In this document: positions 4,445-23,682 of the stretch, one piece after another
Position numbering within the stretch: the first letter of the stretch is position 1
How the letters are laid out: every line of letters begins with the position of its first letter
IMG/VR virus record: IMGVR_UViG_3300031576_000264
Coordinates: 1-25,877 of that record
Strand: one strand, 5' to 3'
DNA from: a virus
Length of the DNA: 25,877 bases
Notes under the pieces: generated by a model
Seen by the model: the letters and a program-made list of their open reading frames with translations, nothing else
The model's database searches: none
What the model was told of the DNA's origin: nothing
Program-made: the position numbers and the translations under genes

Positions 4445-5563
4445 CTACGCGAACACCTCCTCGACTGCCGTGCTGAGCGAGTAGATCCGCGCGCCGCCCG
4501 TGCTGCCCCGCGCGATCTGCCGCGCGTTGAGAGGCGCGACGAAGCGCAGCTTGATCGCCGTCGCCGTCTCCGGATCGTTCCAGGTAAACGCCTTCTTCCG
4601 CCCGGTCATGTTCGCGTGGAACGCCGTGATCGAGTCGTGGTCGGTCGAAGAGACGACGCCCCACACCATCGGCCAGCGCGTCCGCGACCTGCTCCCGCGC
4701 GCGTGCGTGACGACGTGCCCGCCGTCAGGCCGGAACTCGTTGTGCTGCCACTGATCGTCCGGGACGTTCGGCCGGTCAGGCTGCACCGGGAGCGTGTCGC
4801 CCGTCGAGTCGTCCTCGACCGAGAGCGCGATGGGAGTGAGCGTCGGCGCAGCGGTGAGCGTGTAGGCCGGCCAGAGATCGGCGAGGACGGCGTTCACCCC
4901 GATGTCCCGGACGCGAAACCGATCGACGTACCCCACGAGCGAGCCGTCGATCTTCGTGAAGAAGCCGCCGTAGTAGGTGGCCGAGAGGAACGTCGTCAGG
5001 CTCCGATTCGTCCCCGTGTTGAACTGCCCGAGGTTGATCGTCGAGGTGAGGACGTTCGATCCGTCGATGTAGAAGTAGACGAAGAGCGTGGAGGCACCGA
5101 TCACGATGTCGATCTTCAGCCGGTACGTCTGCCCGGCGACGAGCGGCGCCACCGGAAGGTTGTTCAGCGCCACCAACGTCTCGCTCGCGGCGGCCGTCCC
5201 GCGCAGCACCACACGCATCGCATGGCTCGCGCCGGCTGCGTTCCGCTCGATCTGGAACCCGAGCCCTGAGCGGCCAGACGCGAGGTTCATCACGGTCAGG
5301 CCCATCCGGACTGAGGAGCCGACGCCAGTCGGAAGCGTCGCCGGCATGACGACGTCGCCCTCGTACTGGATGATCTTCGGCGAGGTCAGGACCACGCCGG
5401 GATCGGACGGCGCAAACGTCATCTGCGCCTCGGCGTTGAGCGAGGCGACGGTCTGCGATGCCTTCTGCCCGTCCGAGGCAAAGCCCGAGCTGGTCACCTG
5501 AATCCATTGCGTCGAGACAGACCCCGCCACACCGAAGTCGTCCTGTTGAATCAGGAGACTCAT
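4445..5563 (-). CDS. Minor tail protein, lectin-like N-terminus with gpM-like C-terminus
   Basis: 372 aa, far longer than lambda gpM (109 aa). Residues 1-230 form a beta-sandwich-like region resembling concanavalin/LamG-type folds, with repeated Gly/Ser strands and segments such as FYIDGSNVL and VGYVDRFRVRDIGV. The last ~120 residues have the gpM-like pattern: an HARGSRSRTRWPMVW stretch, then an alpha-helix and FTWNDPETATAIKLRFVAP. The inferred role is a distal-tail or tip-adjacent protein with an added carbohydrate-binding-like domain. The ATG at 5563 overlaps the TGA of the tape measure gene as ATGA. The stop codon TAG (4447-4445) directly abuts the start of L. The lectin-like domain could equally be structural; no binding residues can be named. 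Confidence 0.65.
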   Translation of the reverse strand: MSLLIQQDDFGVAGSVSTQWIQVTSSGFASDGQKASQTVASLNAEAQMTFAPSDPGVVLTSPKIIQYEGDVVMPATLPTGVGSSVRMGLTVMNLASGRSGLGFQIERNAAGASHAMRVVLRGTAAASETLVALNNLPVAPLVAGQTYRLKIDIVIGASTLFVYFYIDGSNVLTSTINLGQFNTGTNRSLTTFLSATYYGGFFTKIDGSLVGYVDRFRVRDIGVNAVLADLWPAYTLTAAPTLTPIALSVEDDSTGDTLPVQPDRPNVPDDQWQHNEFRPDGGHVVTHARGSRSRTRWPMVWGVVSSTDHDSITAFHANMTGRKKAFTWNDPETATAIKLRFVAPLNARQIARGSTGGARIYSLSTAVEEVFA

Positions 5564-7158
5564 GCGGAGCGCAGCTTTCGGCGGAAGGCGTTGGAGCTTT
5601 CGAGGCCGGACATGACGCCGCGGCGCGCGGCACGCTCCACCTCGCGCGGGTTGGCGTTCCCGTAGAAGTTCTGCACGAGCTGCACGCCGCCTCCGGAGCC
5701 GTTCGGGTGGACGTATCCGCTCGTGCCAGGCTGGAAGTACTCGGGGCCGTTCTCGCCGACGACGTAGCCACGGCCGGCAGAGACTGGGCCGCCCGAAGCG
5801 CGCCCGCCTCCGGACAGGTTCAGGCCGCCGAGGCCCTGCGGCTGGACCGGCAACCCGAGTGCGCTCGCGATGATCCGGAAGAGAGCGAGCTGGATCAGCA
5901 TGCGGCCAATATCCCGGAGGATGTTGAGAGCCATCTCCTTGAACGCCGCGCCGAGGCTCTTCGTCCCGTCGATGATCCCCATCAATCCGTCCGTGATGTG
6001 GTTCGAAAGCAGGTCAGCGATCGCGGTCAGGTCGGCGCGGAACGCAGCGAGGTCTTCGGCCCGCAGCCTCGCGAGTTCTTCCCGGAACTCTCTGAGCTGC
6101 GCGACGCCTTCCTCGAACTGTTCCCTGTCAAACCGGAACGAGTCCCGCCAAACATCCCGAAGGCCGCGGAGCGCGTCGGCGACGTCGTTGACGTCAGCCT
6201 TCGTCTCCGTGATGGCGTTGTCCCACCTGAAGAGCCGGTCCAGCGCCTGGTCCAGCGCCTGCGTCGCCGCATCCATCGCCGCAGCGAGCCCGCCAGAATC
6301 GCGCCCGGTGGCATCCGCAAGCTTGAGCGCGTCGTTCGCCGCCTTGACCGCCGCCTCGCCAGCTTTCGTGTACTCGCCACCGAGAGAGCGCACGGTGCGA
6401 AGCAGATCGCTCATCTGTTCGACGGCGTTCGCGGTGTCAGAGAGCGGTGGCGCTACGAACTGCGGATCGAATCGCCCGATTGCCCTGGTAGAGGCTTCAG
6501 CGAGGGCGTTGTAGGCGTCGGCCAGTTGCTGGATCTCCAAGCCCTCACGCACGCGGGCGCGGGCTTGGCCCTTCTCGCCAGTAAGGTCGAACGTGTCGCC
6601 TGGAGACAAGAACCCTTTCCAGATGTCTCCGAGCTTCACCGCGCCGCTCGCCAGCGCGCGAATGAAGACGATCATCTGCTTGATCGCTTCGACCACCTCT
6701 CGCAAGAACCGGACGATGGCCTCTTTGTTCTGTCGGAGCCACCTGGCGATCGCGTCCAGGGTTTCGACCATGCCGCCCGAGAACTCGCCGACGACGCTCC
6801 CGAAGACTGAGATGACCGACGCCTTCAGGCGTGACATTGCTTCCGCAACCGCGTTGATCTTCTGTTGCGTTCCGGCTCCGAACACCGCCTGAAACGTCGT
6901 CGCGTTCTTCGCGAGGTTGGACATCAACGCGCCGAAGACCGCGAAGATCCCGCCTCCCAGGAGCAGCGAGCGGAGCGAAAAGAAGGACTTGAGCACGCCG
7001 CCCATCTGCCGGCCTAGCAGCAACACGGGAGCGAGGAGCAGCCTGCCGATCCCGCGGCCAATCCCGCTGATCGTGCCCCCGATCGAGCGCATGACCCGCG
7101 TCGCTTCGTCGCGAGCCCTCACCACGATCGTCATTTCGCTGCTATCGCCGGCTGCCAC
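5560..7158 (-). CDS. Tape measure protein
   Basis: 532 aa from GTG 7158. That start has GAGG centred about 10 bases upstream and overlaps the chaperone extension by 17 bases; ATG 7134 is an alternative. A longer in-frame start at 7272 adds only an Arg-rich run that looks non-coding. It holds a hydrophobic segment near residues 35-80 (LLLAPVLLLG, LLLGGGIFAVFGALM) and long amphipathic helices with many Asp/Ala/Arg. A further hydrophobic helix lies near 430-460. The C-terminus has a GGPVSAGRGYVVGENGPEYF motif, typical of lambda-like tape measure proteins. The protein sets tail length and fills the tube. At about 0.15 nm per residue it predicts a short tail of roughly 80 nm. It sits between the tail chaperone and minor tail genes, as expected. 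Confidence 0.9.
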   Translation of the reverse strand: MAAGDSSEMTIVVRARDEATRVMRSIGGTISGIGRGIGRLLLAPVLLLGRQMGGVLKSFFSLRSLLLGGGIFAVFGALMSNLAKNATTFQAVFGAGTQQKINAVAEAMSRLKASVISVFGSVVGEFSGGMVETLDAIARWLRQNKEAIVRFLREVVEAIKQMIVFIRALASGAVKLGDIWKGFLSPGDTFDLTGEKGQARARVREGLEIQQLADAYNALAEASTRAIGRFDPQFVAPPLSDTANAVEQMSDLLRTVRSLGGEYTKAGEAAVKAANDALKLADATGRDSGGLAAAMDAATQALDQALDRLFRWDNAITETKADVNDVADALRGLRDVWRDSFRFDREQFEEGVAQLREFREELARLRAEDLAAFRADLTAIADLLSNHITDGLMGIIDGTKSLGAAFKEMALNILRDIGRMLIQLALFRIIASALGLPVQPQGLGGLNLSGGGRASGGPVSAGRGYVVGENGPEYFQPGTSGYVHPNGSGGGVQLVQNFYGNANPREVERAARRGVMSGLESSNAFRRKLRSA

Positions 7159-7932
7159 GGTCCTTAGCCTCCCTCTCGTGCTTCTTGAACTCCTCGTGCT
7201 CGAGCCGCGACACCTCGCCCGAGAACGCCTGCATCGCCGCCACGAACGTCGCACTCTGATCCAGCGCGGCACCTGGGGCCGGCCAGCACCCGTAGGTCAA
7301 CCACGGGTAGAAGGACAGCGCCTCGGCCACCTGGACAGACACCGCCTGACTCGGGCACTGGTAGAGGTCGATCGTCTCGCCCCTGAACCGGAAGGCCGCA
7401 ATCCGGGCAGTACAGGGCACGTCGCAGCCCCATTGGGCGCGCAAGTCGGGGTTGGCCTGGCAGGCGTTGCAATCGAACTCAAACCTCCCCGCCGCGACGT
7501 GCGCGGCCAGAATCAGTTTTTTTCGTCGTCCTCCGAGAGCGTGTTGACCTCGACGATGGCATCGGCAAGCTCGGTGCGATCAGCCCGGCTGATCCGGGAT
7601 AGGAAGGCGTCCGTGACGAAGAAGCGCGACGGGTTGCGCTTGCTGTCAGGCTCGGCCTCGAACGGGATTGCTGCGCCATCCGCGTCGTAGAAGTCCTCGC
7701 ACCCGACGAGGCCGAGCCTGAGCGTCTTCAGCTCGACGGTGCCGCCGAGCATCCTGCCCGACATCTCCTTCCCGTCTTGGTGGTACGCCACGATCCCGTC
7801 GCGAAGCTCGGTTTGCTCCTTGACGGTCAGAGGCTTGAGCTTCCAGCGCGTCGGCTTCGCGCCCTCCGCGAGCTTCCGGTCGCTCTTGAGAACGTAGTCG
7901 AACGGCTTGTTCGGATCGACAGCAATCGCCAT
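7142..7932 (-). CDS. Tail assembly chaperone, -1 frameshift fusion product (lambda gpGT-like)
   Basis: Predicted 263-aa product: the 139 residues of the G-like protein are joined by a -1 slip at AAAAAAC (7522-7516) to 124 residues read from 7516 to the TAG at 7144-7142. The -1 frame has no convincing independent start: its first in-frame start codon is a TTG at 7444, inside the conserved region. Immediately before that TTG lies a CNAC motif, with further cysteines following (GCDVPC, YQCP), so the extension is Cys-rich and possibly metal-binding. Its C-terminus is charged and helical (LEHEEFKKHEREAKD). In lambda the G and GT proteins are made in a fixed ratio, bind the tape measure and recruit tail tube subunits. 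The gene sits between tail tube and tape measure, where such pairs are found in nearly all long-tailed phages. Confidence 0.85.
7491..7507 (-). promoter_or_regulatory. Hairpin downstream of the slippery site (frameshift stimulator)
   Basis: On the minus strand, GCCGCG (7507-7502) pairs perfectly with CGCGGC (7496-7491) around a CACGT loop. It begins 8 bases after the heptamer, within the 5-9 base spacing typical of stimulatory structures. A pseudoknot with downstream sequence was not assessed. Confidence 0.7.
7513..7932 (-). CDS. Tail assembly chaperone, zero-frame product (lambda gpG-like)
   Basis: 139 aa. ATG 7932 is chosen because AGGAGG lies 9 bases upstream; the TTG at 7938 would be only 3 bases from that site. 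The protein contains VKEQTELRDGIVAYHQDGKEM and LRLGLVGCEDFYDADG and ends in the acidic SEDDEKN directly before TGA. This is the abundant, non-shifted chaperone, expected to bind the tape measure during tail assembly and be absent from the virion. Identification rests mainly on position between tail tube and tape measure, size, and the frameshift signal at its last codons; sequence similarity to lambda gpG itself is not evident by eye. Confidence 0.85.
   Translation of the reverse strand: MAIAVDPNKPFDYVLKSDRKLAEGAKPTRWKLKPLTVKEQTELRDGIVAYHQDGKEMSGRMLGGTVELKTLRLGLVGCEDFYDADGAAIPFEAEPDSKRNPSRFFVTDAFLSRISRADRTELADAIVEVNTLSEDDEKN
7516..7522 (-). promoter_or_regulatory. -1 ribosomal frameshift slippery heptamer A AAA AAC
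   Basis: Read on the minus strand, the last sense codons are GAA AAA AAC, then TGA. The zero-frame phasing A AAA AAC is the standard X XXY YYZ form. After a one-base slip both tRNAs re-pair on AAA AAA, and reading resumes at CTG 7516 in the long -1 frame. The run of seven A's on the coding strand is conspicuous in this GC-rich window. Confidence 0.88.
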
Positions 7933-7950
7933 TGGCAAGGTCCTCCTGGG

Positions 7951-8898
7951 TTACGCCTTCGTGATCACGATCTCGTCGTCGCCGCTGGAGCGGTTCAGGT
8001 CCCCGGTCAGCTCGGCCACGCGGATGCCGTTTCTCTCCCCGATGCCCATCGACTTGATGAGCGCCTTCGGGGCCGAGAACGTCAGGTTCGCCCCCTGGAT
8101 GTTGAACGCGACCGCGAACTCGGTGCCGGCCAGGAACATCCCGTTCCAGTCCTTCGTTCCCGTCGCCTCGAACTCGGGGTCCGTCTCGAACGTCACGTTC
8201 CGGTTGACGATCAGGAAGTGCAGGATGCCCTCGGCCGCGTTCACGTCCTCGCGGGCGACGACCTCGTTGCCGACATCCCAGGCGAACCGCGCCACCTTCG
8301 CCGCGAAGCTGTCGAGCGTCAGCGTCGGAGCCAGGAACGCGCTCGGCTTCGTCGCCTCGTGGGTCACGCTGTTGACCGCGCCGGCCGTGCTGAAGCCGTT
8401 GTAGACGCCCCAGATTTCAAACGACAGGAGCGACGTCTCGCCGTTCTGATGGACGCCCCTGACCGTCCCGGCGCACCCCTTCATCGCGTAGCGCATCGAC
8501 GCCGTGCCGGTCGATCCGACGTAGACGTAGAAGCTCATGCACGAGTGGTCGGAGTGCTTGCTCGACGGCTTCAGCACGAGGTTGCTGGCCGGGTTCGTCC
8601 CGACGAAGCCGCAGATCCGCATCAGGTTGTTCCACTGATCCTCGCTCGCGGCCGTCGCGGTTCGGCGCATCTCGAGGTCGAACGTCATCCGCATCGGCGT
8701 CTTGCCGATCACGGCCGGGAACTTCGACATGTCCGTGGTCATCACGTTGCGGTCGTGCGCCTCGAAGTCCGCGAAGAGCTGCGCGTTCTTCACGAGGAAC
8801 TTGCTCTCCGTGCCGTCGACCGCGGGCGCGTTGAACGTGCCCTTCGTGCTCTCGACCTTCCCGGCCAGCTCGAAGATTCTGCCCAGATAAACGCCCAT
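7951..8898 (-). CDS. Major tail tube protein
   Basis: 315 aa; ATG 8898 has GGAGG about 5 bases upstream. The protein begins MGVYLGRIFELAGKVEST and is rich in beta strands and Thr/Phe/Val. It contains phrases typical of siphovirus tube subunits, such as MRMTFDLEMRRT near 70 and LSFEIWGVYNGF near 160-170. It is inferred to polymerise as hexameric rings forming the tail tube around the tape measure. Support is its place directly after the tail-completion genes and directly before the chaperone, plus size and composition. At 315 aa it is longer than the lambda V core, so it may carry an extra surface domain, but I cannot mark a boundary. Confidence 0.78.
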   Translation of the reverse strand: MGVYLGRIFELAGKVESTKGTFNAPAVDGTESKFLVKNAQLFADFEAHDRNVMTTDMSKFPAVIGKTPMRMTFDLEMRRTATAASEDQWNNLMRICGFVGTNPASNLVLKPSSKHSDHSCMSFYVYVGSTGTASMRYAMKGCAGTVRGVHQNGETSLLSFEIWGVYNGFSTAGAVNSVTHEATKPSAFLAPTLTLDSFAAKVARFAWDVGNEVVAREDVNAAEGILHFLIVNRNVTFETDPEFEATGTKDWNGMFLAGTEFAVAFNIQGANLTFSAPKALIKSMGIGERNGIRVAELTGDLNRSSGDDEIVITKA

Positions 8899-8907
8899 CG
8901 TTGCCTC

Positions 8908-9387
8908 CTATGCGATCTGGACCGAAGGGTCCTGGTCGCTTGTGCGGTAGTGGATGCGCATCGTCATCGTGATGCGACAGGTCGGATCGTCGTCCGGCGC
9001 CGGGAGCCCGACGATGGTCCCGGTAATCTCCGAGTCGATGACTGCCCCGCCGAGTGTGAAGTCGCGGATCGCCTTCGCGAGGTCGTGCTCCCACACCTCG
9101 GCATCGGTGTCCGGATTCCAGCTCTGCGGCCCGAAGAAGCACTTGATGACGACCGTCGCGTACACGTCGTAGATGTTCGACGAGCCGTTCGCCGTCATCC
9201 GCTTCCATTCCTTCGAGGCCCCGACGATGAGGATGATCGGGGTGGTCGGAAGGACGCGATCCGGCAGCCGCTCGCGGAGGACGGTCGGGCGCTTCGTCTG
9301 CGCCCAAGTGGTGACGCCCGCGTCACCGATCTGCGTGAAGAGCGTCTTCAGCGCGGCGAGCGGGGCTTCTCCGACGAAGGTCGGCAT
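8908..9387 (-). CDS. Probable tail terminator / tail completion protein
   Basis: 159 aa. It starts MPTFVGEAPLAALKTLFTQIGD and has an alternating alpha/beta pattern with conserved-looking segments TTPIILIVGASKEW and YDVYATVVIKCFF. The placement, last gene before the tail tube and after the gp10-like neck protein, is where gpU-type terminators lie. Such proteins cap the growing tube and dock it to the head. The ATG (9387-9385) overlaps the preceding TAA by one base (TAATG). Family assignment is from context and fold-like pattern, not from a recognised motif. Confidence 0.55.
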   Translation of the reverse strand: MPTFVGEAPLAALKTLFTQIGDAGVTTWAQTKRPTVLRERLPDRVLPTTPIILIVGASKEWKRMTANGSSNIYDVYATVVIKCFFGPQSWNPDTDAEVWEHDLAKAIRDFTLGGAVIDSEITGTIVGLPAPDDDPTCRITMTMRIHYRTSDQDPSVQIA

Positions 9388-23171: not shown

Positions 23172-23386
23172 CGCTTCGCGCGTTTCGCCGCCAGCTCGAT
23201 CTTGCCGGTGATCGACGCGAGGTAGTCGGCGGCCATCGACATCGCTCCCGCCCTCGCGAGCAACGGGCCGCGGGCGATGTCGCGCTCGCCTGTCCCCAGA
23301 GCCATCGCCACTTCCCCGCGCGCCTCCTTGCGGAGAGCCCTGATTGAACGGTCGTGGTCCCTCGGTGTCCTCGCTCGCTTCTTCAT
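23168..23386 (-). CDS. Small basic helical protein, 72 aa
   Basis: ATG 23386 overlaps the preceding TGA as ATGA, and the end overlaps the next ATG the same way. It starts MKKRARTPRDHDRSIRALRK, is strongly basic at both ends, and has a central Ala/Met-rich helix (LLARAGAMSMAADYLASITG). No motif recognised. The composition would suit nucleic acid or protein contact, but no function can be given. Confidence 0.65.
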   Translation of the reverse strand: MKKRARTPRDHDRSIRALRKEARGEVAMALGTGERDIARGPLLARAGAMSMAADYLASITGKIELAAKRAKR

Positions 23387-23682
23387 TCTGGCTCTCCCAT
23401 CGTTGGTTCGTGGAACAGGTGCGGTTGCCTGAACTCCTGCGGGCGCGGCATCGCGTGCCCGCTCCTCGCGTCGCCATCAGGCGGACGCCGGTGCTGTGCG
23501 GCCTGGGCGCACGTCGAGAAGTGGCTCGGATAGCCGCGCACCATCCGCGTGATCTGGTTCTCTGCGCCGTCCTGGACGATCTCGGCCACGAGGACCTCGC
23601 GCTCGTCCAGCGGCATCGCCTTCCCGTTTGGAGTCTTCGCCCAGATGATCGCGCGGTGGCAGGTCCGGCAGGTGTCGCTCAC
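23383..23682 (-). CDS. Zinc-ribbon-like small protein, 99 aa
   Basis: GTG 23682 overlaps the previous stop as GTGA; a longer start at 23730 is rejected for overlap. Near the N-terminus lies CRTCHRAIIWAKTPNGKAMPLD, and near residue 55-60 HFSTC, giving a C-x2-C...H-x3-C arrangement. This family is common in phages, where short proteins carry CxxCxxxIxWA followed by a later HFxTC. The function is unknown. The C-terminal ~35 residues are Pro/His/Gln-rich and probably disordered. Confidence 0.72.
   Translation of the reverse strand: MSDTCRTCHRAIIWAKTPNGKAMPLDEREVLVAEIVQDGAENQITRMVRGYPSHFSTCAQAAQHRRPPDGDARSGHAMPRPQEFRQPHLFHEPTMGEPE

Follow-up and report, generated by a model that had tools for sequence, protein, structure and literature searches.

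A probable −1 frameshift site abutting the stop codon of a putative tail assembly chaperone gene in a large, mostly unannotated phage family

The putative tail assembly chaperone gene of an uncultured virus most probably carries a programmed −1 ribosomal frameshift site of the lambda G/GT kind, a reading to which we assign a probability of about 94%. The DNA analysed is a single viral contig of 25,877 nt (the window), in which the chaperone and frameshift features are all on the minus strand (Table 1). At the 3′ end of the zero-frame gene G, the codons GAA (7524-7522), AAA (7521-7519) and AAC (7518-7516) are followed by TGA (7515-7513), and a slippery heptamer, A AAA AAC, directly abuts the stop. 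Most ribosomes would read GAA AAA AAC and terminate at TGA, yielding the short chaperone G, while a minority, with A AAA AAC occupied by the tRNAs for Lys and Asn, would slip back one base, continue with CTG ATT CTG and add the 124-residue T domain, giving GT. By analogy with lambda, G is expected to coat the tape measure and a few GT copies to recruit the tail tube protein, and the G:GT ratio would matter for tail assembly. The TGA, in or beside the A site, may let release factor compete against slippage; the ribosome may also be slowed by the hairpin further downstream. A sequence-only reading had proposed a −1 frameshift signal in this gene; the layout and the conservation of the heptamer support the proposal, with slippage itself predicted from these features, and the site in the window is a clear, testable case of frameshifting.

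The individual elements of the site were located as that reading had described them, namely a zero frame ending GAA AAA AAC TGA with the heptamer directly before the stop, then an 8-base spacer and a 6-bp GC stem with a 5-base loop (together 7515-7491). The arms of the hairpin are GCCGCG (7507-7502) and CGCGGC (7496-7491), enclosing the loop CACGT (7501-7497). AAAAAAC is present once in the window, against 0.30 copies expected, and at least one copy was found in 26 of 100 shuffles; AAAAAACTGA also has one copy, with 0.00 expected (100 shuffles). The slip site holds a run of seven A residues and is the only place on the coding strand of the window with a run of six or more. The T frame opens with CTG at 7516, stays open from 7516 to 7145 and closes with TAG at 7144-7142, and its third-position GC content of 0.87 is similar to that of other structural genes.

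Table 1. Features of the chaperone locus in the window
Feature	Position	Strand	Basis
Probable major tail tube protein, 315 aa	7951..8898	−	Position and size only
Zero-frame tail assembly chaperone G (probable), 139 aa	7513..7932	−	ORF; ATG start; G proteins of relatives align
Slippery heptamer A AAA AAC	7522-7516	−	Sequence; phase kept in relatives
Zero-frame TGA stop ("intercodon") abutting the heptamer	7513..7515	−	Sequence; immediate stop in relatives; leucine codon bias
Spacer from heptamer to stem, TGATTCTG	7515-7508	−	8 nt
Local hairpin GCCGCG-CACGT-CGCGGC, 8 nt past the heptamer	7491..7507	−	Sequence; some subclass relatives
−1 frame T extension, 124 codons and TAG stop, readable only after slippage	7142..7516	−	Translation; homologues
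Four cysteines of T (C17, C20, C32, C55)	7355..7471 (codons from 7471, 7462, 7426, 7357)	−	Invariant
Tape measure protein, start ATG 7134	5560..7134	−	phrog_1538 tape measure, E 6.9e-14

The start of G was placed at ATG 7932, with the Shine-Dalgarno sequence AGGAGG at 7947-7942; the TTG at 7938 given in the ORF list is a less likely start than this ATG with its AGGAGG. G proteins of relatives align to that of the window, with C-termini of the form ..E.EKN/RKN, and 2 of the 18 relatives in the alignment match phrog_313, a tail assembly chaperone family (best E 2.8e-4). Against curated families, G and T of the window themselves gave nothing significant (Pfam Phage_TAC_5 for G, E 0.06; phrog_389, E 0.098), and PDB sequence searches gave no meaningful match. 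Window G as query matched no phage record, and single-protein searches of viral contigs with G and the capsid protein as queries returned zero matches. A fold search with G ranked two chains of 2ob9, the tail assembly chaperone of HK97, highest, at a non-significant E of 3.8. The assignment of G as a probable tail chaperone rests on its genome position, the two relatives in phrog_313, one T relative that matches phrog_9001 (also tail assembly chaperone) and this non-significant fold match. The G/T locus lies between the presumed tail tube gene and the tape measure gene in the window, in Alteromonas phage P24 and in relatives, the tube gene being placed by position (a family search with the 7951..8898 product found no match), and in five relatives the ORF after T is the tape measure. 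The gene order typical of G/GT loci, to which the sequence-only reading had appealed, is kept.

With T of the window as query, one named phage was recovered, Alteromonas phage P24 (MK241539), at a weak E of 0.04. The P24 G protein ends S-E-R-K-N-stop, encoded AGA AAA AAC TAA, so that the heptamer A AAA AAC is again followed by an immediate stop; a homologous T lies in the −1 frame, the spacing between the heptamer and its cysteine pair equals that in the window, and an annotated tape measure gene comes directly after it. P24 differs in that its T has 26% identity to that of the window and the GC hairpin of the window type is absent. The weak E value notwithstanding, the P24 locus is, judged on its sequence, unmistakably the same cassette. 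In the P24 record the T frame (MK241539.2, about 23370-23672; 9004-9309 in our locus L002) lies in a stretch without annotation that separates the chaperone gene from the tape measure gene, and the G/GT fusion is absent.

Conservation of the heptamer was assessed in several searches. A pattern search with the heptamer and the cysteine pair, biased by the presence of the heptamer in the pattern, matched at least 120 viral contigs; in 107 of the 120 listed, G and T are both long frames and are arranged as in the window. A first blind search used the T cysteine motif only, with the slip site left out, and again matched at least 120 viral contigs. Among the 120 matches listed, 115 have AAAAAAC and four AAAAAAT, all in exact phase, and one is an unrelated protein. 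A slippery heptamer is therefore present in all 119 true members listed (119 of 119), which we call the main group. A second blind search, with the T C-terminal motif, covered a wider group (the O group), which is nearer to the window than the main group is, and gave at least 120 matches; 99 of the 120 listed have A AAA AAN or G GGA AAC (70 AAAAAAC, 18 AAAAAAA, 10 GGGAAAC and 1 AAAAAAT). Three of the other 21 are cut by a contig edge, several have a heptamer but space the cysteines differently, and in some the heptamer is A AAT TTT or G GGT TTT, as tandem slippage would predict. In a third blind search, with the motif LILAAHVAA of the window's subclass, AAAAAAC was present in five of five true relatives with the cysteine motif. 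The sequence-only reading had named relatives lacking the heptamer, or with the two frames fused or separately started, as evidence that would count against it; since the blind searches recovered, among the matches listed, in-phase heptamers in all 119 main-group members and in most of the O group, the proposal has come through this comparison.

Several further observations were made on these relatives. Three loci that match the T C-terminal motif without A AAA AAN (L173, L191 and L201) have A AAT TTT or G GGT TTT and represent another branch with the same overall design. Four others (L169, L185, L257 and L263) match that motif without a clear heptamer, and L169, L257 and L263 are glycine-rich ahead of the cysteines. 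Among loci L290-L374, recovered with a pattern that included the heptamer, at least 74 genome loci have an intact cassette, most of them in Acidobacteriota (Bryobacterales) MAGs. Main-group phages therefore look like Bryobacterales prophages; with the heptamer in the pattern, these loci carry no information about its conservation. In L017 (8073-8762), and likewise in L032, L057 and L076, the gene that separates T from the distal tail genes encodes only about 205-230 aa, and L018 seemingly has no gene there; the L017 gene had no match in PHROG. Should this main-group gene encode the tape measure, very short tails would be expected.

The heptamers found in relatives also bear on whether the fusion might arise at the level of transcription, by RNA polymerase stuttering on the A run to produce some mRNAs with an extra or missing A. 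Runs of A can cause such slippage, and the window has seven in a row; the main group, however, mostly has only six (CGA or AGA before AAA AAC), and all of the sites retain the X XXY YYZ phase. A homopolymer run is not maintained across the family, with G GGA AAC in 10 of 99 O-group members among the matches listed and G GGT TTT in one exception. Because G GGA AAC contains no homopolymer, we consider transcriptional slippage very unlikely. Tandem −1 slippage of the ribosome on A AAA AAC, by comparison, is consistent with the conserved phase, with the A AAA AAU and G GGA AAC variants and with the alternative heptamers.

The T extension of the window is homologous to that of P24 and of about 200 distinct contigs. 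Its four cysteines are invariant across a 60-sequence alignment and likely make up a putative metal-binding site. An AlphaFold2 model of T, in which the junction is helical, has an average pLDDT of 86; fold searches with T gave no significant match. Since T of the window and 15 relatives matched no Pfam family at E 0.01, the four-cysteine domain could serve as a handle for spotting such fusions in metagenomes. Inspection of the open reading frames and starts bore out the description of a −1 frame that is open for 124 codons but has no usable start of its own, the first start-like codon being a TTG at 7444, 24 codons in and past the first two cysteines (CNAC). This counts against T being translated alone, by reinitiation or from its own start near the G stop, with the heptamer incidental. 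Phage operons often contain overlapping stop/start pairs, and among the O-group matches listed 19 of 99 have an ATG in the T frame ahead of the first cysteine; in 53 of the 99, though, neither ATG, GTG nor TTG precedes that cysteine, and essentially every member of the main group listed retains the heptamer. Independent translation of T is accordingly regarded as extremely unlikely.

Under the frameshift reading, the stop codon that follows the heptamer deserves particular attention. Among the matches listed, 89% of main-group members and 51% of O-group members have a stop as the next codon; about half of the O group has a sense codon there, and many of these members stop one codon later. The first T codon is leucine, and the choice of leucine codon decides whether the immediate stop is present. 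Before Ile, Thr or Met, 90 of 91 cases use CTG or CTA here, compared with 170 of 225 nearby T codons (p 2e-8). CTA as first T codon accounts for 32 of 110 cases against a background of 11 of 225, a six-fold enrichment (p 2e-9), and before Val, where CTA alone gives a stop (CTG yielding TGG), CTA is used in four of five. This bias toward CTG and CTA indicates that the immediate stop after the heptamer is under selection.

Why the stop is kept is a separate question within the frameshift reading. It might simply spare a useless zero-frame tail and play no part in slippage, an explanation that we place slightly below even odds. The O-group members with sense codons at this place, many of them stopping one codon later, fit that explanation, as does the fact that CTG, common anyway, yields TGA for free before Ile. 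The six-fold enrichment of the rare CTA and its use before Val speak somewhat against it, yet are compatible with either reason for keeping the stop. PMC4373837, citing earlier work, reports competition between release factor and slippage at such a stop for bacterial ribosomes on an HIV site, which also counts against a purely tail-sparing role. Alternatively, the stop may be a working part of the switch: slippage would occur with the stop waiting in the A site, the supply of release factor would set the chaperone ratio and with it tail assembly, and this design would be common to a large, mostly uncultured phage group that includes many Acidobacteriota prophages. We put this forward tentatively and think it somewhat doubtful. 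The selected stop offers a simple test of the timing of slippage on bacterial ribosomes, which could precede or follow entry of the next codon into the A site.

The downstream RNA stem was evaluated in the window and in relatives. An equivalent hairpin appears in 23% of synonymous recodings of the same peptide, and predicted folding of the 61 nt downstream of the heptamer is no stronger than that of dinucleotide shuffles (z +0.35). A local hairpin is found in the same place in several subclass relatives, with six of six pairs in L187, five in L199, L203 and L264, and three or four in L178, L189 and L195; in L187 a two-sided change converts a G-C pair to C-G. Support from these relatives for the hairpin is moderate, since the sequence coding for Ala-x-His-Val-Ala-Ala favours such a structure. 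Most relatives have a longer stem that closes over the Cys codon, its start lying about 5-6 nt past the heptamer; on inspection of its sequence, the window lacks this long stem and has the short local hairpin in its place. The stem claimed by the sequence-only reading is present as a perfect 6-bp helix, but taken alone it is not above chance in the window and differs from the stem conserved in most relatives.

For the long stem of the relatives, 7.57 of 12 Watson–Crick pairs form in the O group at the expected register, against at most 4.53 when the arms are slid by up to 6 nt, and in the main group 7.33 against 5.36. Shuffling of the 3′ arms in the O group gave 6.60 pairs (SD 0.12), and the observed value was reached in 0 of 2000 shuffles, although such tests overstate independence as the relatives share ancestry. 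Compensatory pairs include G-C (24) and A-T (17) at column 18 and C-G (17) and T-A (13) at column 20, counts that are not of independent events in related sequences; column 12 of the main group has G-C, C-G and A-T pairs. A fold test with synonymous codons gave a clear signal in the O group (mean z −1.41) and a weak one in the main group (mean z −0.28), where the null pool holds the same conserved codons. A longest-helix test gave no separation in the main group, whose stem has a one-base bulge, but its pairwise columns do covary. Taken over the alignments, the long stem of the relatives covaries.

In tandem slippage, the shift follows decoding of AAC, and Asn is the residue at the junction in the main product; earlier slippage gives a minor product. 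The main junction should then read DDEKN-LILAAHV, with DDEKK-LILAAHV as a minor form, and the lysine junction (DEK-K-LILAAHV) previously proposed has to be corrected as the main product. The predicted tryptic junction peptides would be NLILAAHVAAGR for a tandem slip after AAC is decoded and LILAAHVAAGR for an earlier slip. In E. coli, A_AAA_AAC is a weaker slip site than A_AAA_AAG (PMC5009743), which counts against the frameshift reading. Frameshifting of 6-7% was found for a tail chaperone cluster in another study (PMC3711429). The site in the window belongs to a large phage family that is mostly unannotated and missed by current annotation, with T lacking annotation even in the deposited P24 genome.

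The kind of mechanism proposed here is already known from lambda G/GT; what is added is the family, the selected stop, the covarying stem of the relatives and the four-cysteine extension. The lambda heptamer is G GGA AAG, whereas that of the window is A AAA AAC, with a stop directly after it and a T domain with four invariant cysteines. Both loci precede the tape measure gene, have a −1 shift near the end of G and give, in the window by prediction, a short and an extended product; the G and GT roles would also be shared, lambda G binding the tape measure and GT additionally the tube protein, at a G:GT ratio of about 30:1 (PMC5009743). The g-t frameshift sites of the haloarchaeal viruses HCTV-2 and HCTV-1 differ in having archaeal hosts. 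A stop codon immediately after the slippery heptamer is also found in Rous sarcoma virus and barley yellow dwarf virus (PMC4373837), but these are eukaryotic RNA viruses in which the genes and structures are unrelated to those described here.
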